NCBI RefSeq assembly: GCF_020515525.1
Contig: NZ_JAIYEP010000022.1
Span: 1-56,375 of the forward strand
DNA length: 56,375 nt
Direction: 5' to 3'
From: Rhodococcus yananensis
GTDB lineage: Bacteria; Actinomycetota; Actinomycetes; Mycobacteriales; Mycobacteriaceae
Each line of letters opens with the position of its first letter. Position 1 is the stretch's first letter. Positions 7,984 through 14,999 of this stretch are shown here, piece after piece. The notes under the pieces were generated by a model. That model was not told the DNA's origin. It saw only the letters and a list, made by a program, of their open reading frames with translations, and ran no database searches. The position numbers were made by a program, and so were the translations under genes.

Positions 7984-9210
7984 TCAGGCGGCCTCCGAGG
8001 CGAGGAGGATGTCGCGCACCACGGCGTCGGCGAGCAACCGGCCGCGGCCGGTGAGCACGAGCCGTTCGTCGTCTATGACGGCGAGGCCGTCCGCCACCGC
8101 CCTCGCCGCGGCCTGTCGTTCCGCCGCGCCGAGCACTTCGAGGGGGAGTCCGGTACGCAACCGGACGGTGAGCATCACACGTTCGGTGTGGATGTCGCCC
8201 GAACTCAGGGTTTCGCTGTCGGCGACCGGCAGGGCAGCGTCGGCGAGCATCGTCGCGTACCGCGCCGGGTGCTTGACGTTCCACCATCGGACGCCACCGA
8301 CGTGACTGTGGGCACCCGGTCCGGCACCCCACCAGTCACCGCCGTCCCAGTAGCCGAGATTGTGTCGGCACCGCGCGTCGGGATCGTCGGCCCGGGCCCA
8401 GTTCGACACCTCGTACCACGTGAGTCCGGCGGCTTCGAGTCGCGCATCGATCCGTTCGTAGCGAGCGGCCAACACGTCGTCGTCCGGGGCCGGGATCTCG
8501 CCGCGACGGACCCGGCGTGCGAGCGCGGTTCCGTCCTCGACGATCAACGCGTAGGCCGACACGTGATCGACCCCGGCCGCGAGCACGGCGTCGAGGGAGG
8601 CCTCCAGGTCCGTGTCCCGTTCCCCCGGTGTCCCGTAGATCAGATCGAGGTTGACGTGGTCGAATCCGGCGGTCCGGGCCTCACGTGCCGCCGCGACCGG
8701 ACGACCCGGCGTATGGGTCCGGTCCAGCACCTTCAGCACGTGTTCGGCCGCGGACTGCATGCCGAGCGAGACACGGGTGTACCCGGCATCACGGATCCGG
8801 CCGAAGAAGTGCGGCGAGGTGGATTCCGGATTCGACTCGGTGGTGACCTCCGCGCCCGAGGCCAGCCCGAACGCGGCACGCACCGCGTCCAGCACCTCGG
8901 CGAGACCGTCCGCTCCGAGCAGTGACGGGGTTCCGCCCCCGACGAAGACCGTCTGCGCCGGGGGCGCGCCTCGTCCCTCGCGGTCGAGCAGCGCGGCTCC
9001 GGCGTCGAGTTCCCGTTTCAGTGCGTCGAGCCACGACCGCGGGGACGCCGCCGTGCCGAGTTCTCCCGCCGTGTAGGTGTTGAAATCGCAGTAGCCGCAC
9101 CGTGATGCGCAGAACGGTACGTGCACGTACACGCCGAACGGTCGGGTGCCGACGCCGACGAGCGCGGTATCCGGTAACGCCAGGACACCGCCGGCTTCGT
9201 TCCCACTCAC
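7984..9210 (-). CDS. hemW: HemW-like radical SAM heme chaperone
   Basis: About 408 residues from GTG 9210; an in-frame alternative start lies at 9264. The radical SAM motif is CASRCGYC, with Cys34, Cys38 and Cys41 (CX3CX2C), followed by GGGTPS. The CDF after the third Cys, in place of the CxCF of true coproporphyrinogen dehydrogenase HemN, puts it in the HemW group. HemW binds heme and an Fe-S cluster and is thought to hand heme to respiratory proteins. No strong ribosome site supports either start. It is divergent from the sulfur operon leader at 9362. Confidence 0.9.
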   Translation of the reverse strand: MSGNEAGGVLALPDTALVGVGTRPFGVYVHVPFCASRCGYCDFNTYTAGELGTAASPRSWLDALKRELDAGAALLDREGRGAPPAQTVFVGGGTPSLLGADGLAEVLDAVRAAFGLASGAEVTTESNPESTSPHFFGRIRDAGYTRVSLGMQSAAEHVLKVLDRTHTPGRPVAAAREARTAGFDHVNLDLIYGTPGERDTDLEASLDAVLAAGVDHVSAYALIVEDGTALARRVRRGEIPAPDDDVLAARYERIDARLEAAGLTWYEVSNWARADDPDARCRHNLGYWDGGDWWGAGPGAHSHVGGVRWWNVKHPARYATMLADAALPVADSETLSSGDIHTERVMLTVRLRTGLPLEVLGAAERQAAARAVADGLAVIDDERLVLTGRGRLLADAVVRDILLASEAA

Positions 9211-9323
9211 GTCGTCCAGTGTTCCAGACCGGGGAACCGTCACCCCGGGCCGTGCCTTCGACAAGCCTCACGCCGCGCCTACCTCGACATTTCCCCCGTT
9301 TCGAGTGGAAATAGGACCCGGGA

Positions 9324-9354
9324 TTGGTCCCCGGCCCCGATGACGTGGCACAAT
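9324..9354 (+). promoter_or_regulatory. promoter of the cysteine leader/sirA operon
   Basis: A -10 hexamer CACAAT at 9349-9354 ends 7 bases before the leader ATG at 9362. TTGGTC at 9324-9329 is a -35 candidate with a 19-bp spacer. This places the transcript start at or next to the A of the ATG, giving a leaderless mRNA. Position-based inference. Confidence 0.55.
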
Positions 9355-9361
9355 GGTCGCC

Positions 9362-9472
9362 ATGACCGGACTCGGAGTGCGACTCGTGGCGCGACGCCAC
9401 GTCGACTTCAAGCGTGTCTGCGCGTCCTGCTGTCTGCCCTGCGCCGCCTGTTCCTGCCCCGACTGTCGTTAG
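9362..9472 (+). CDS. polycysteine leader peptide of the sulfate reduction operon
   Basis: A 36-codon ORF starting at ATG, 7 bases after a -10 hexamer. The product begins MTGLGVRLVARRHVDFKRV and then packs seven Cys at positions 20, 23, 24, 27, 30, 32 and 35 before Arg-stop. It lies 116 bases before sirA on the same strand. Short leaderless Cys-rich ORFs before cysteine-synthesis genes have been described in mycobacteria as attenuators: slow translation of Cys codons when charged tRNA-Cys is scarce raises downstream expression. The RRHVD core also looks like the putative leader peptides annotated in actinobacteria. The codon content and position are seen; attenuation here is inferred. Confidence 0.85.
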   Translation: MTGLGVRLVARRHVDFKRVCASCCLPCAACSCPDCR

Positions 9473-9588
9473 TCGGATCAGCCCCGGCAACTACCCCGAT
9501 CCCGCCGGGTCGAGGCGTGCGCGCGTGAGGTTCAGCCCCCTCTGCGCACCGTCGGCCCGGATCATCGCGAAATCCAGGAGACCTGCGA

Positions 9589-11310
9589 ATGTCGTCGACC
9601 ACCGACGTCTCTCCCCCCGCCGCGACGGACGCTCCCGCCCGGCGTCGCCCTGCCCGACCGGCCAAGCGCCGCGCCGAAGGCCAGTGGGCTCTCGGTTACC
9701 GGGAACCACTCAACGGCAACGAGCAGACCAAGAAGGACGACAATCCGCTCAACGTCCGCCGGCGCATCATCGACACGTACCAGCACGTCGGTTTCGCCAA
9801 CATCGACAAGTCGGATCTGCGGAGCCGGTTCCGGTGGATGGGTCTGTACACCCAGCGCGCCGAGGGTTACGACGGCACGTGGACCGGCGACGACAACGCC
9901 GATCTGCTCGAGGCCCCGTACTTCATGATGCGGGTACGCACCGACGGCGGGAAGTTGAACACCGCGCAGGTGCGGGCCATCGCGAGCGTGTCGAAGGACT
10001 TCGCGCGTGATACCGCCGACATCACCGACCGCCAGAACATCCAGTTCCACTGGGTCGAGATCGAGAACGTGCCGGAGATCTGGCGTCGACTCGAGGAGGT
10101 CGGCCTGCAGACCACCGAGGCGTGCGGCGACTGCCCTCGCGGCATGCTCGGTTCCCCGCTCGCCGGGCTCTCGCCGAACGAGGTGATCGACGCGTCTCCG
10201 GCGCTCGCGGAGATCAAGCGCCGGTACATCGGCAATCCCGAGTACTCGAACCTGCCGCGCAAGTTCAAGACCGCGATCTCGGGCCAGCCCGATGTCGTGC
10301 ACGAGATCAACGACGTCTCGTTCGTCGGGGTGAACCACCCCGAGCACGGGCCCGGGTTCGACCTGTGGGTCGGTGGCGGTCTGTCCACCAACCCGATGCT
10401 CGCGCAGCGCACCGGCGCGTGGATCCCGATCGAGGACGTCCCGGACGTGTGGGAGGGCGTGGTCGCGATCTTCCGTGACTACGGCTATCGCCGGCTCCGG
10501 TCGAAGGCCCGCCTGAAGTTCCTCATCAAGGATTGGGGCATCGAGAAGTTCCGCGAGGTCCTCGAGACGGAATACCTGAAGCGGCCGCTCATCGACGGGC
10601 CGGCACCCGAGAAGCCGATCCATCCGATCGACCACGTCGGGCTCACCCGGCAGACGAACGGGCTCAACGCCATCGGCTTCTCCGCGGTCTCCGGTCGGGT
10701 GTCGGGCACGATCCTCGACACCATCGCCGACGCGATGGAGGAGGCCGGCACCGACTCGCTGCGACTGACCCCGTACCAGAAACTGATCGTCGTGGACGTT
10801 CCCGACGACAAGGTCGCGGGGGTGGACAGCGCCCTCGAAGCGGTCGGGTTGAGTTCGCGTCCGTCCCGCTGGCGGCGCAACCTCATCGCGTGCACAGGTC
10901 TCGAATACTGCAAACTGTCGTTCACCGAGACCCGCAGCCGCTCCCAGAATCTCGTGCCGGAGCTGGAGGCGCGACTCGCCGAACTGAACTCCGAACTCGA
11001 CGTGCCGATCACCATCAACTTCAACGGGTGCCCCAACTCGTGCGCCCGCATCCAGGTCGCCGACATCGGGTTCAAGGGCATGCTCGTCGACGACGGTGAC
11101 GGCAAGCAGATCGAGGGCTTCCAGGTGCATCTCGGCGGCAGCCTCGGATTCGACATCGGGTTCGGGCGCAAACTGCGACAGCACCGCATCCTCGCCCACG
11201 AGGCCACCGACTACATCGAGCGGCTCGTGCGCAACTTCATCAAGAACCGCAACGCCGGCGAACGTTTCGCCGAGTGGGTGGTTCGGGCAGACGAGGCGGA
11301 CCTGCGATGA
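9589..11310 (+). CDS. sirA: assimilatory ferredoxin-sulfite reductase
   Basis: A 573-residue siroheme/[4Fe-4S] reductase of the NirA/SirA family that reduces sulfite to sulfide. The cluster ligands are Cys435 and Cys441 (CTGLEYC) and Cys481 and Cys485 (CPNSC). Tyr87 (GLYTQR) and Cys179 (ACGDC) are 92 residues apart, the same spacing as the Tyr-Cys crosslink known in M. tuberculosis NirA, which supports sulfite over nitrite as substrate. The first 30 residues are a basic, Pro/Ala-rich extension. GGAG lies 10 bases before the ATG. The stop overlaps the start of cysH. Confidence 0.95.
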   Translation: MSSTTDVSPPAATDAPARRRPARPAKRRAEGQWALGYREPLNGNEQTKKDDNPLNVRRRIIDTYQHVGFANIDKSDLRSRFRWMGLYTQRAEGYDGTWTGDDNADLLEAPYFMMRVRTDGGKLNTAQVRAIASVSKDFARDTADITDRQNIQFHWVEIENVPEIWRRLEEVGLQTTEACGDCPRGMLGSPLAGLSPNEVIDASPALAEIKRRYIGNPEYSNLPRKFKTAISGQPDVVHEINDVSFVGVNHPEHGPGFDLWVGGGLSTNPMLAQRTGAWIPIEDVPDVWEGVVAIFRDYGYRRLRSKARLKFLIKDWGIEKFREVLETEYLKRPLIDGPAPEKPIHPIDHVGLTRQTNGLNAIGFSAVSGRVSGTILDTIADAMEEAGTDSLRLTPYQKLIVVDVPDDKVAGVDSALEAVGLSSRPSRWRRNLIACTGLEYCKLSFTETRSRSQNLVPELEARLAELNSELDVPITINFNGCPNSCARIQVADIGFKGMLVDDGDGKQIEGFQVHLGGSLGFDIGFGRKLRQHRILAHEATDYIERLVRNFIKNRNAGERFAEWVVRADEADLR

Positions 11311-12014
11311 GCATCGACAGCCGGACCACCGAGGACCTTCGGAAGCTCGCCGCGCAGGGGGCGGCAAGTCTCGACGGCGCCTCCACGGACGAGTTGCTGC
11401 GGTGGACCGAGGAAACCTTCGGGGACTCGTACATCGTGGCCTCGAACATGCAGGACGGGGTGCTCGTGCACCTGGCCGCCCAGGTGCATCCGGGCGTCGA
11501 CGTCCTGTTCCTCGACACGGGGTACCACTTCGCCGAGACCCTCGGTACCCGTGACGCCGTCGAGCAGGTGTACGGCGTCAACGTGATCAACGCGCAGGCG
11601 AAGCAGTCCGTCACCGAGCAGGAGGCCCTGCTCGGCAAGGACCTGTTCGCCCGCGACCCCAACGAGTGCTGCCGGCTCCGGAAGGTGGTGCCGTTGAAGG
11701 AGACCCTGAGCGGTTACCGCGCATGGGTCACCGGCATCCGGCGGGTCGAGGCACCCACCCGTGCCAACGCCCCGCTCATCTCGTTCGACGACGCGTTCGG
11801 GCTCGTGAAGATCAATCCGATCGCGGCGTGGTCCGACGAGGACATGCAGAACTACATCGACGAGCACGGGATTCTCGTCAATCCGCTCGTCGACGAGGGA
11901 TACCCCTCGATCGGGTGCGCGCCGTGCACCGTCAAACCACTTCCCGGGGCCGACCCGCGCAGCGGGCGCTGGGCCGGCCGAGCCAAGACCGAATGCGGGT
12001 TGCACTCCTCATGA
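11307..12014 (+). CDS. cysH: adenylyl-sulfate (APS) reductase
   Basis: A 235-residue reductase of the CysH family that converts APS to sulfite and AMP using thioredoxin. The cluster Cys pairs are present (Cys121-Cys122 and Cys204/Cys207), which mark the iron-sulfur APS-type enzyme as opposed to the cluster-free PAPS type. The catalytic Cys230 is in TECGLH near the C terminus. ATG 11307 overlaps the sirA stop (ATGA), so translation is coupled. Its own stop overlaps cysD. Confidence 0.95.
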   Translation: MSIDSRTTEDLRKLAAQGAASLDGASTDELLRWTEETFGDSYIVASNMQDGVLVHLAAQVHPGVDVLFLDTGYHFAETLGTRDAVEQVYGVNVINAQAKQSVTEQEALLGKDLFARDPNECCRLRKVVPLKETLSGYRAWVTGIRRVEAPTRANAPLISFDDAFGLVKINPIAAWSDEDMQNYIDEHGILVNPLVDEGYPSIGCAPCTVKPLPGADPRSGRWAGRAKTECGLHSS

Positions 12015-12955
12015 CAGTTACCGAATCGAACCTCACCGACAGCCGGGTCCAGTTGGACGGCAACAAATTCGACACCCTCGACGCACTCGAATCGGAAGCG
12101 ATCCACATCTTCCGTGAGGTCGCGGGCGAGTTCGAACGACCCGTGATCCTGTTCTCCGGCGGCAAGGACTCCACCGTCCTGCTGCACCTCGCCGTCAAGG
12201 CGTTCTGGCCGGCGCCGCTGCCGTTCTCGTTGCTGCACGTCGACACCGGCCACAACCTGCCGGAGGTGCTGGCGTTCCGCGACCACGTCGTGCAGAAGTA
12301 CAACCTGCGCCTCCACGTCGCAAGCGTCGAGGAGTACATCGCCGACGGACGCCTCACCGAGCGCCCCGACGGCATCCGCAACCCGCTGCAGACCGTTCCC
12401 CTGCTCGACGCGATCACCTCGAACCGATTCGACGCCGTCTTCGGAGGTGCCCGCCGCGACGAGGAACGCGCCCGCGCCAAGGAGCGCATCTTCTCGCTGC
12501 GCAACGCGTTCGGACAGTGGGACCCCAAGCGTCAGCGTCCCGAGTTGTGGAACCTCTACAACGGCCGGCACGCCCCGGGTGAGCACGTGCGGGTGTTCCC
12601 GCTGAGCAATTTCACCGAGCTCGACATCTGGCGTTACATCGCCCGTGAGAACGTCGAACTCGCGAGCATCTACTACGCGCACGAGCGTCCCGTCTACCGC
12701 CGCGACGGCATGTGGATGACCCCGGGCGTGTGGGGTGGGCCCGCGGACGGCGAGGAACTCGAGACCCGGTGGGTGCGCTACCGCACCGTCGGCGACGGTT
12801 CCACCACCGGTGCGGTCCTGTCCGAGGCCGCCACCAACGAGGAGATCCTCGCCGAGGTCGCCGCATCGCGTCTCACCGAGCGCGGCGCCACCCGAGGCGA
12901 CGACCGTGTTTCCGAAGCGGCCATGGAAGACCGCAAGCGAGAGGGCTACTTCTGA
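12011..12955 (+). CDS. cysD: sulfate adenylyltransferase subunit 2
   Basis: A 314-residue ATP sulfurylase small subunit. The PP-loop motif SGGKDST is at 49-55. The sequence ends MEDRKREGYF, typical of CysD. With CysN it makes APS from sulfate and ATP. The ATG overlaps the cysH stop by 4 bases and its stop overlaps the cysN ATG by one base (TGATG). The gene order places activation (CysDN) after reduction (SirA, CysH) in the same mRNA. Confidence 0.96.
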   Translation: MTVTESNLTDSRVQLDGNKFDTLDALESEAIHIFREVAGEFERPVILFSGGKDSTVLLHLAVKAFWPAPLPFSLLHVDTGHNLPEVLAFRDHVVQKYNLRLHVASVEEYIADGRLTERPDGIRNPLQTVPLLDAITSNRFDAVFGGARRDEERARAKERIFSLRNAFGQWDPKRQRPELWNLYNGRHAPGEHVRVFPLSNFTELDIWRYIARENVELASIYYAHERPVYRRDGMWMTPGVWGGPADGEELETRWVRYRTVGDGSTTGAVLSEAATNEEILAEVAASRLTERGATRGDDRVSEAAMEDRKREGYF

Positions 12956-14256
12956 TGAGCGATCTTCTTCGCCTGGCTACCGCCGGGAGCGTCGACGACG
13001 GCAAGTCCACCCTGGTGGGACGGTTGCTGTACGACACCAAATCCGTCCTGGCCGACCAGATCGACGCCGTCACCCGCGCGTCGGTCGACCGGGGCCTCGA
13101 CACCCCCGACCTGTCGCTGCTCGTCGACGGCCTGCGCGCCGAACGCGAACAGGGCATCACCATCGACGTCGCCTACCGATACTTCGCGACCCCGAAGCGC
13201 AGCTTCGTGCTCGCCGACACCCCCGGCCACGTCCAGTACACCCGCAACACGGTCTCCGGTGCGTCCACCGCGCAGCTCGTGGTGCTGCTCGTCGACGCGC
13301 GCAAGGGCGTGATCTCGCAGACCCGCAAGCACGCGGCGGTGCTGGCGATGCTGGGCGTGCCCAAGCTCGTGCTGGCCGTCAACAAGATCGACCTCGTCGA
13401 GGACGCGGCCGCGGTGTTCGCCGACATCTCCCGCGAGTTCACCTCCCTGACCACCTCGCTCGGCTGGGCACCCGAGGACGTGCAGGAGATCCCGGTGTCG
13501 GCGCTGCACGGCGACAACGTCGCGACCCGCTCGGAGAACACCCCGTTCTACGACGGTCCGACGCTGATCGAATACCTCGAGTCCGTTCCGGTGGACGCCG
13601 ATGTGCACGGTCGTCACGAGGTGGGCCTGCGGTTCGCGGTCCAGTACGTCATCCGGCCCCGCACCGCGGAGTTCCCGGATTACCGGGGCTACGCCGGACA
13701 GATCGGTGCCGGTTCGGTCCGGCCCGGCGACGAGATCGTCGTGCTCCCGTCCGGGGTGCGGACCACCGTCGAACGCATCGACACCGCCGACGGCGAACTC
13801 GACGTCGCGCACGCCGGACGATCCGTGACGCTGATCCTCACCGACGATGTCGACGTCTCCCGCGGGGACGTCCTCGCCTCCCCCGTCGACGCACCCGAAC
13901 CGATCGGCGAGTTCGAGGCCACCGTCTGCTGGTTGGCCGAGAAGCCGCTGCGCCCCGGCGCGCGTCTGCTCCTCAAGCACGGCACCCGCACCACGCAGGC
14001 CATCGTCGGCGCCCTCGACGAACGATTCGACGAGCAGACCCTCACCTCCGAGGACAGCCCGGAATCGTTGGAACTCAACGAGATCGCGCGGATCTCGGTG
14101 CGGGTCGCCGAGCCGATCGCGGCAGACGACTACACCGTCAACCGTCGCACGGGCAGCTTCCTGCTCATCGACCCCGCGAACGGCAACACGCTGGCGGCGG
14201 GTCTGGTCGGCAACGCCCTCGCCGCGGTCGAACGCGGGGACAGCGTCCCCGCGTGA
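12955..14256 (+). CDS. cysN: sulfate adenylyltransferase subunit 1 (GTPase)
   Basis: A 433-residue EF-Tu-like GTPase. The P-loop GSVDDGKS is at 11-18, DTPGH at 88-92 and NKID at 143-146, followed by two beta-barrel domains. GTP hydrolysis drives APS formation by CysD. There is no C-terminal APS kinase (CysC) domain, unlike the CysNC fusion of M. tuberculosis. That agrees with the neighbouring reductase using APS directly. The stop overlaps the GTG of the next gene. Confidence 0.95.
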   Translation: MSDLLRLATAGSVDDGKSTLVGRLLYDTKSVLADQIDAVTRASVDRGLDTPDLSLLVDGLRAEREQGITIDVAYRYFATPKRSFVLADTPGHVQYTRNTVSGASTAQLVVLLVDARKGVISQTRKHAAVLAMLGVPKLVLAVNKIDLVEDAAAVFADISREFTSLTTSLGWAPEDVQEIPVSALHGDNVATRSENTPFYDGPTLIEYLESVPVDADVHGRHEVGLRFAVQYVIRPRTAEFPDYRGYAGQIGAGSVRPGDEIVVLPSGVRTTVERIDTADGELDVAHAGRSVTLILTDDVDVSRGDVLASPVDAPEPIGEFEATVCWLAEKPLRPGARLLLKHGTRTTQAIVGALDERFDEQTLTSEDSPESLELNEIARISVRVAEPIAADDYTVNRRTGSFLLIDPANGNTLAAGLVGNALAAVERGDSVPA

Positions 14257-14999
14257 TCCCGCTCGTCGCCGTCGCGCACGGCAGCCGCGACCCGCGTTCC
14301 GCACGGGCCGTCGCTGCCGCGCTCGCGGCGCTCCGGGCGCGTCACCCCGATCTGGACGTACGGCTGGCCTTCCTGGACCTGAACACGCCGTCGGTGTCGC
14401 AGGTTCTCGATGCGGTCGCCGCGGACGGTCATCGACGGGCCGTGGTGGTACCGCTGTTGCTCGGAAGCGCATTCCACGCGCGGGTCGACCTCCCCGCCCT
14501 GATCGCCGAATCCCGAGTCCGCAACGCCCACCTCGACGTGGTCGTCTCCGACATCCTCGGTGACGACCCACTGCTCGTCACCGCCTGCCGCGACGGCATC
14601 GTCTCGACGGGTGTGCCCGTCGACGACCCGGACGTGGGCGTCGCACTGTGCGCCGTCGGGTCACGTCGACCCGGAGCGGATGCGGCGACGCGCGGCGTGG
14701 CGCCGCGGGTGACGGCAGGTACGGCATGGCGTCGCCCCGCGGTGTGTTTCGCCACCGCGTCGCAGCCGTCGGTGACCGTCGCGCTCGAGGAACTCGTCCG
14801 CGCCGGTGCGCGCCGGCTCGTGCTCGCGCCGTGGATGCTGGCGCCGGGGTTGCTGTGGGATCGCGTCTGTGCCGCCGCGGAGTCGGTTGCCGACGTGGTG
14901 ATCGCGCCGCACCTCGCCGACGATGAGGCCGTCGGCGAGGTCGTCCTCGCCCGCTACACGACCGCCCTCGAGCGGATGGGGCTGCTGCGCGCCGCGTGA
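14253..14999 (+). CDS. sirohydrochlorin chelatase, CbiX family
   Basis: A 248-residue class II chelatase with two repeats of the CbiX fold. VAHGSR (His9) and FHAR (His75) in the N-terminal half are the expected metal-binding histidines. It would insert Fe2+ into sirohydrochlorin to finish the siroheme needed by SirA; a cobalt-chelatase role is a possible alternative. The GTG start overlaps the cysN stop by 4 bases. It is the last gene of the operon, so cofactor and apoenzyme are made together. M. tuberculosis has a similar gene (che1) near sirA and cysH. Confidence 0.88.
   Translation: MIPLVAVAHGSRDPRSARAVAAALAALRARHPDLDVRLAFLDLNTPSVSQVLDAVAADGHRRAVVVPLLLGSAFHARVDLPALIAESRVRNAHLDVVVSDILGDDPLLVTACRDGIVSTGVPVDDPDVGVALCAVGSRRPGADAATRGVAPRVTAGTAWRRPAVCFATASQPSVTVALEELVRAGARRLVLAPWMLAPGLLWDRVCAAAESVADVVIAPHLADDEAVGEVVLARYTTALERMGLLRAA

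Follow-up and report, generated by a model that had tools for sequence, protein, structure and literature searches.

A probably leaderless, cysteine-rich leader ORF before the sirA–cysH–cysD–cysN genes of Rhodococcus yananensis is a likely cysteine-responsive attenuator

Leaders with runs of Cys codons were predicted for the cys operons of mycobacteria by Seliverstov et al. 2005, who termed the mode of regulation unknown and, in the accessible portion of the paper, reported no conserved hairpin capable of termination in Mycobacterium cys leaders (PMC1262725). Cys-rich leaderless upstream ORFs (uORFs) before cysA2 and nirA/Msmeg_4527 were later reported by Shell et al. 2015, with attenuation proposed (PMC4633059, in excerpt). 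Cysteine-responsive attenuation in M. smegmatis is credited to Canestrari et al. 2020 in the available passages of three further papers (PMC9031893, PMC13236596, PMC9094748), and the attenuator has been described as an mRNA structure that involves the leader and hides the downstream ribosome-binding site (PMC13236596, in excerpt). The statement of the first-pass annotation of this DNA that polycysteine leaderless attenuators were already known in mycobacteria agrees with these sources, so far as their available text goes, the prediction dating from 2005 and the report of cysteine responsiveness from 2020 (PMC1262725, PMC9031893, PMC13236596). The kind of leader is thus already known, and the additions made here are a hairpin with a CAGCC loop, a TGT codon fixed at one position, and conservation of the core RRH[VI]D at the peptide level.

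The locus lies in a 56,375-nt stretch of Rhodococcus yananensis DNA (the whole stretch analysed, hereafter the window). Translation and gene calls confirmed the arrangement first proposed from the bare sequence, i.e., a 36-codon ORF upstream of a sulfate reduction operon, starting 7 nt past CACAAT and with seven of its last 17 codons encoding Cys (Table 1). The ORF encodes MTGLGVRLVARRHVDFKRVCASCCLPCAACSCPDCR, followed by the stop, and all seven Cys fall within codons 20–36. At least seven Cys codons per 17 are expected with p ~1.5e-7 from the base composition of the window, and in all six frames of these 56 kb only two stop-free 17-codon stretches contained at least seven Cys, which overlap each other and are both inside the leader ORF. 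The DNA at 9346–9364 reads TGGCACAAT-GGTCGCC-ATG, with CACAAT at 9349–9354 and the 7-nt spacer GGTCGCC before the leader ATG. A second in-frame ATG at 9353, missing from the earlier annotation, overlaps the -10 box (CACAATGG). We prefer 9362 as the start, since the ATG at 9353 requires a G directly after the box, found in only 49/78 loci, and would precede the point at which the transcript is expected to begin.

Table 1. Features of the leader locus and the downstream genes (window positions).
Feature	Position	Strand	Details
Extended -10 box TGG-CACAAT, probably of a leaderless transcript	9346..9354	+	pattern TGGCA[CG][AT]AT
Leaderless-type Cys-rich leader ORF	9362..9472	+	ATG at expected +1; stop TAG 9470-9472; NF042936 44.4 bits
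RRHVD motif, codons 11-15	9392..9406	+	R, R, H, D in 73/73 distinct leaders; V 51, I 22
Cys tract	9419..9466	+	codons 20, 23, 24, 27, 30, 32, 35 = TGC TGC TGT TGC TGT TGC TGT
Hairpin GAGG-TTCAGCCC-CCTC, CAGCC loop	9527..9542	+	CAGC begins 43 nt before sirA Shine-Dalgarno
Shine-Dalgarno AGGAG of sirA	9576..9580	+	context CAGGAG; CAGGAG in 56/77 loci
sirA, NirA/SirA-type (NIR_SIR) sulfite reductase	9589..11310	+	PF01077 1.5e-61, PF03460 3.1e-33
cysH, adenylylsulfate/PAPS reductase	11307..12014	+	TIGR02055 243.4 bits vs cut-off 235.3
cysD	12014..12955	+	TIGR02039 475.2 bits vs cut-off 396.6
cysN	12952..14256	+	TIGR02034 529.5 bits vs cut-off 336.1

As in the Ms4527A/nirA layout, the leader is directly upstream of sirA, whose ATG is 116 nt past the leader stop. 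The ORF that follows cysN, at 14250–14999 (VIPLVAVAHGSRDPRSARAV...), looks like a sirohydrochlorin ferrochelatase and, if it is one, would supply siroheme for SirA. Upstream of the leader, hemW is encoded on the opposite strand (TIGR00539, 231.5 bits vs cut-off 205.4).

Compared with the described systems, the leader is most like Ms4527A (the NCBIfam family NF042936, Ms4527A family Cys-rich leader peptide), with which it shares the gene neighbourhood, the peptide core, a Cys-rich C-terminus and a probably leaderless transcript. Unlike the mycobacterial Ms4527A peptides, it has alanine in place of serine after the first Cys, and its tail is longer, with seven Cys against three to six in the mycobacterial leaders compared here. 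Ms5788A (NF042933, upstream of cysA2) is likewise a Cys-run leaderless uORF but has another peptide core and another operon, and the NF042934 group (putative leader peptides, cis_reg_atten) shares the RRHVD core. With the mycobacterial cys leaders, as the accessible part of PMC1262725 presents them, it has in common a run of Cys codons near the stop and a position upstream of a cys operon; with the cysteine-responsive attenuators of Canestrari et al. 2020 it shares the Cys-codon run, here 7/17 codons. The leader scored 44.4 bits (E 8.5e-12) against NF042936, 0.6 bits below the curated cut-off of 45, and 15.8 bits against NF042934, where the cut-off is 27; by strict cut-offs it is a member of neither family. 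In synteny, promoter and peptide it nevertheless corresponds to the Ms4527A/nirA leader of mycobacteria, of which we regard it as the equivalent in Rhodococcus.

To place the leader among its relatives, we compared the window with the best 80 sirA loci among 577 with an encoded relative, chosen by sirA and with at most 1500 nt upstream of each. An ORF with [RVS]RH[VI]D...R was found before sirA in 79/81 loci including the window (78/80 without it). The two loci without the motif were one with only 51 nt of upstream DNA (L044) and one without HVD (L082). In the latter, from a Mycobacterium MAG (L082:1318-1396) and read by eye, the leader MSAAEGITPIRRCCCPALLP still has a CCC run and the TGGCACAAT promoter in front of it, but HVD is gone, which makes the locus a natural experiment on the need for RRHVD. 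Among the 66 distinct leader peptides from 78 loci (L008, which has no promoter match, was excluded), 66/66 matched NF042936, 64/66 NF042934 and 8/66 NF042933 at E ≤ 0.01. The proposed kinship with the mycobacterial Cys leaders is supported by the first of these counts. The suggestion that the peptide may also belong to the RRHVD leader group is supported for the leader family as a whole, given its matches to NF042934, but the window peptide itself scores below the cut-off. At the level of GTDB species genomes, NF042936 was detected in 168/201 of the family and 224/249 of the order (E ≤ 0.01) and in 18/18 of the genus (E ≤ 0.1), and above the cut-off of 45 in 48/201, 26/249 and 0/18, respectively; the family and order counts do not specify the operon downstream of each match.

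A TGn followed by a -10 hexamer forms an extended -10 box. In 78/79 leader loci (the exception being L008), the 140 nt that precede the RRH motif contained the pattern TGGCA[CG][AT]AT, compared with 0/2210 control stretches of 140 nt drawn from the same loci. The distance from the box to the start codon was 7 nt in 67 of these 78 loci, 6 nt in ten and 8 nt in one, and the start codon was ATG in 47 and GTG in 31. The base-by-base invariance of the box is partly by construction, as the search pattern was derived from the same loci; at positions outside the pattern, T-9 and A-2 were each present in 74/74 distinct sequences. A standard -35/-10 scan detected no sigma-70-type pair at the leader locus. 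Given the box-to-start spacing, the transcript is expected to begin at the start codon, and the conserved geometry indicates that it is probably leaderless. Farther upstream than 9346, sirA promoters show partial conservation of a stretch resembling GGAAA(T/A) (A-44 in 67/74), located at about -48 to -42 when counted from the end of the box; this stretch is a possible activator site. Elsewhere in the genome, TGGAACAATGGTCGCCGTG occurs upstream of an ORF (L203; G000:C16, ~11917) that looks FolD-like, suggesting that other genes, too, have an extended -10 box of this kind in a leaderless arrangement.

The number of Cys residues between RRH and the stop differed widely among the 79 leaders, i.e., one (n = 2), two (n = 20), three (n = 28), four (n = 13), five (n = 8), six (n = 4) and seven (n = 4). 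Both single-Cys leaders were from Gordonia, those of Nocardia had two or three and those of mycobacteria three to six, and the four with seven were from the window, R. gordoniae, R. zopfii and Rhodococcus sp. 105337. As 22/79 leaders have only one or two Cys, "polycysteine" is not a constant feature. Within the genus, where 17 of 18 genomes were counted (L162, with no leader beside the promoter pattern, was left out), seven Cys were found in 11/17, and six, five and four in two genomes each. Seven is thus the most frequent number within the genus, where it looks like an expansion and not a unique oddity. Loss of the Cys codons in close relatives, named beforehand as evidence against the regulatory reading, was not complete in any of these 17 genomes, in which the number was reduced at most to four.

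The core of the peptide was conserved in a different manner from its Cys-rich tail. In the 73 distinct cores, the first R was encoded by CGT (n = 28), CGG (n = 15), CGC (n = 15), CGA (n = 13) or AGG (n = 2), the D by GAC (n = 39) or GAT (n = 34), and the residue three before RRH was L in 73/73 using four codons; the R of xKR was also fixed as an amino acid. The fixity of RH[VI]D...R is partly by construction, since it served as the search motif. From the pattern of synonymous change, we conclude that RRH[VI]D is kept at the peptide level, a core that a plain Cys-tRNA sensor would not need. A hairpin GTGGC/GCCAC within the RRHVD codons was considered as a cause of the conservation and rejected: its five pairs form in 47/73 cores and the others break one to three of them, and because the synonymous variation is broad, conservation of the peptide fits better.

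Cys was kept at core position 1 in 69/73 leaders and at position 5 in 71/73. The last core Cys codon, which is codon 24 in the window, was TGT in 71/71 leaders that encode Cys at this position (the remaining two leaders have P and E), whereas the first was TGC in 55 and TGT in 14. The 70 distinct leaders contained 148 TGT and 100 TGC codons, against 17 TGT and 539 TGC in the sirA genes of the same loci (17/556), a comparison given without a p-value as the sequences are related. The excess of UGU in the leaders could reflect slow UGU decoding or RNA pairing, and selection for slow Cys decoding would be expected to produce such a TGT bias.

Between the leader and sirA we identified a hairpin with a constant loop and a changing stem. 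CAGCC was located 26–60 nt upstream of the sirA Shine-Dalgarno (SD) sequence in 58/77 loci, compared with ~0.048 expected per locus, typically at ~41 nt, and mostly lies between stems that pair though their sequences differ, such as GGGCGTGAG-TCAGCCC-CTCACGCCT in Nocardia, CGCCGG-ACAGCCC-CCGGTG in Mycobacterium and GCGCCA-CCAGCCC-TGGCGC in Tsukamurella. Among the cases with distinct stems (n = 41, including five in which A, G or T follows CAGC) the stem score averaged 11.9, and at the 311 other CAGCC sites of these loci it averaged 4.2 (p 4e-12 by Mann-Whitney test, which ignores relatedness and includes a small favourable bias from taking the best site per locus). The stem was absent in 8/41 cases, and CAGC was absent from the 26–60 nt region in 14/77 loci, including several mycobacteria (L074, L078, L080, L083-L086). 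In further loci drawn by leader family, of which 26 of 30 were non-identical to the training loci (and may still be close kin), 25 of the 26 had an SD, 18 had CAGCC in place and 15 had a stem score of at least 11. All 17 genus genomes counted have CAGC[CT] 35–44 nt before CAGGAG. Alignment folding predicted the hairpin with a probability near 1 in one Nocardia set, the R. jostii relatives and the fast-growing mycobacteria, and nearly as high in Tsukamurella and a second Nocardia set; it was partial in the Rhodococcus genus. Rfam gave no match up to E 5 at 9300–9640 and no gathering match in 10 of the 80 relatives. Neither the CAGCC hairpin, including in a search for nirA leader hairpins, nor RRHVD together with "leader peptide" was found in the literature searched, a search in which subscription papers were mostly outside coverage. 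In having a non-terminator, CAGCC-loop hairpin conserved across several genera, the present leaders are unlike the Mycobacterium cys leaders in the available text of PMC1262725.

The observations made here cover the ORF, the geometry of its promoter, synteny and conservation, the codon bias and the hairpin. On these, and by analogy with the mycobacterial systems, we read 9362–9472, with a probability of roughly 0.8, as a leaderless ORF whose Cys codons serve as the sensor in the attenuation of sirA-cysH-cysD-cysN, and as likely a translational attenuator responsive to cysteine. The transcript would start at or beside the leader ATG, and a 70S ribosome would begin directly on its 5' end, pass RRHVD and enter a Cys tract rich in the rare UGU. 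When Cys-tRNA is plentiful, the ribosome would finish and leave, so that the leader-sirA RNA folds with the sirA start region poorly accessible; when it is short, the ribosome would pause in the Cys tract, block RNA pairing and allow sirA to be translated. That cysteine is the signal, and in which direction it acts on the operon, we infer from the mycobacterial orthologue. Unmasking of the SD is the probable outcome of attenuation, and the conserved hairpin is probably one structural part of the switch, while any assignment of the RNA segments that pair in it is speculative.

Folding of the RNA bears on this last point. For the window, the predicted pairing of the SD was 0.85, of which 0.72 was with the leader, and fell to 0.54 when the Cys tract was blocked. 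Over 77 of the 79 leader loci folded singly (L008, whose start is not set by a promoter match, and L025, which has no SD motif, were left out), the mean changed from 0.66 to 0.61. When the Cys tract was blocked in alignment folds, SD pairing went down to 0.37 (from 0.47) in the genus and to 0.48 (from 0.71) in one Nocardia set, and was unchanged or slightly higher in the R. jostii relatives, the fast-growing mycobacteria, Tsukamurella and the second Nocardia set. For the genus, placing the ribosome at the stop codon left the SD freer (0.27) than stalling it did, the opposite of what a simple switch calls for. Taken together, the modelled folds give no single, consistent SD-masking switch across loci.

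Two specific pairings were also considered. In the LEU element, according to the accessible text of PMC1262725, a run of leucine codons pairs with the leuA SD, whereas the corresponding anti-SD CCUG is not enriched in the Cys tracts analysed here. Relative to synonymous shuffles, which were built on sirA codon usage and therefore differ from leader usage, CCUG was rarer than expected (32/65 vs 47.5 overall and 26/48 vs 33.4 in loci with the CAGG SD context), as was CUGC (58/65 vs 62.5), and GYUG, the complement of CAGC, was commoner (61/65 vs 50.6; 0/300 shuffles). Single-sequence folds also disagree, and pairing between the Cys tract and the SD was rejected as a general switch. Kissing between the CAGCC loop and the Cys codons drew weak support, as the mean predicted pairing of GYUG at +37 to +40 after RR with the loop was 0.10 in 56 loci. 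Co-occurrence of GYUG at +37 to +40 with the loop gave a Fisher p of 0.025, and any GYUG in the tract a p of 0.32, kinship being ignored in both. The longer complement GGCUG occurred 13 times in the 77 loci, seven of them within leaders. It is still conceivable, if doubtful, that the fixed CAGC(C) loop on its changing stem is an undescribed element and the attenuator structure reported absent in 2005, with the loop kissing UGY-UGY Cys codons through GYUG and the rare, near-fixed UGU setting the pause. If true, the cysteine-sensing codons would themselves be the RNA switch.

Other explanations of the locus place the control elsewhere. A nascent RRH[VI]DxKRVC could act as an arrest peptide that slows or stalls the ribosome, perhaps by sensing a sulfur metabolite, with the Cys codons merely tuning the effect; core residues that are fixed while their codons vary, and that a pure Cys-tRNA sensor would not need, speak for it, as do the 22/79 leaders with just one or two Cys. 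We consider it unlikely overall, as Cys is nearly always kept at core positions 1 and 5, the promoter and CCC run persist in L082 though HVD is gone, the fixity of RH[VI]D is in part an artefact of the search motif, and work on the orthologous system, in the portion of PMC9031893 available, invokes the Cys codons. Attenuation could also operate on transcription, through Rho or otherwise. Ribosomes would then shield the leader, and their release past the Cys tract would expose the RNA to Rho before sirA is reached. Rho was proposed for the mycobacterial cys leaders by Seliverstov et al. 2005 for want of a terminator, a prediction that the same paper, in its accessible part, terms rather weak (PMC1262725). 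The terminator scan of the window found no terminator-like site on the + strand at 9280–9620 and one on the - strand at 9318–9334, so that the hairpin and U-tract of a classical intrinsic-terminator attenuator are absent between leader and sirA in this interval; this speaks against intrinsic termination and has no bearing against Rho. What points instead to translation is the conserved context of the SD, together with the nearly constant spacing between it and the hairpin, and we hold control through Rho or a similar transcriptional route to be distinctly improbable.

Finally, the ORF might encode a small functional protein, e.g., one that binds a metal or responds to redox state through CxxCC...CxxC, and not be a cis regulator at all. 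Seven Cys with CxxC spacing in most of the genus genomes counted speak for this, but the number of Cys (4–7 in the genus, 1–7 over all loci), their spacing and the C-terminus vary, and a TGT fixed at one position is a constraint on nucleotides or codon speed and not on a protein; the chance that this is the main function appears very slight. Translational attenuation by the Cys codons remains the reading we prefer.

Several other candidate leaders were noted in the same genome. A second likely Cys leader (L002:1483-1569; G000:C10, 91378-91464), (V/M)HYRQELMLTRRRAVDLCRLGGCCCTCF, begins with GTG 6 nt past TAGACT and scored 44.6 bits against NF042933 Ms5788A (cut-off 45) and 32.4 against NF042934 (above 27). 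The ORF downstream looks like DUF4395, and no CAGCC was seen by eye between the two. Another short ORF, with MASTQLVRRLAVDLCRVCAHMCCR, is located at L005 ~1480-1570 (G000:C71, ~2268) and scored below the cut-offs of both NF042933 (21.2 bits) and NF042934 (17.8 bits); it precedes a flavin oxidoreductase that resembles FprA ferredoxin-NADP reductase. On contig C105, two leader-like peptides with RRHVDLCR, MAAHTPTRVSSWCRRHVDLCRTASGCCTR (G000:C105:7291-7338, +; L004) and MAFRVWSRRHVDLCRTRSSLCAR (8345-8392, -; L003), face each other ~1 kb apart, with NF042934 scores of 24.6 and 26.3 bits, slightly below the cut-off of 27. The RRHVD DNA pattern was found at 49 places. A search of the genome for other Cys leaders with TGYTGYTGY was uninformative (727 matches vs 1409 in the reversed control).

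Taken as a family, the mycobacterial cysteine leader is present in 18/18 genomes of the Rhodococcus genus and in 168/201 of the family. Its number of Cys varies from one to seven, while the promoter, a single UGU codon and the RRH[VI]D core persist, as does the CAGCC-loop hairpin in most loci. What had been a mode of regulation termed unknown is thereby resolved into specific, testable parts.
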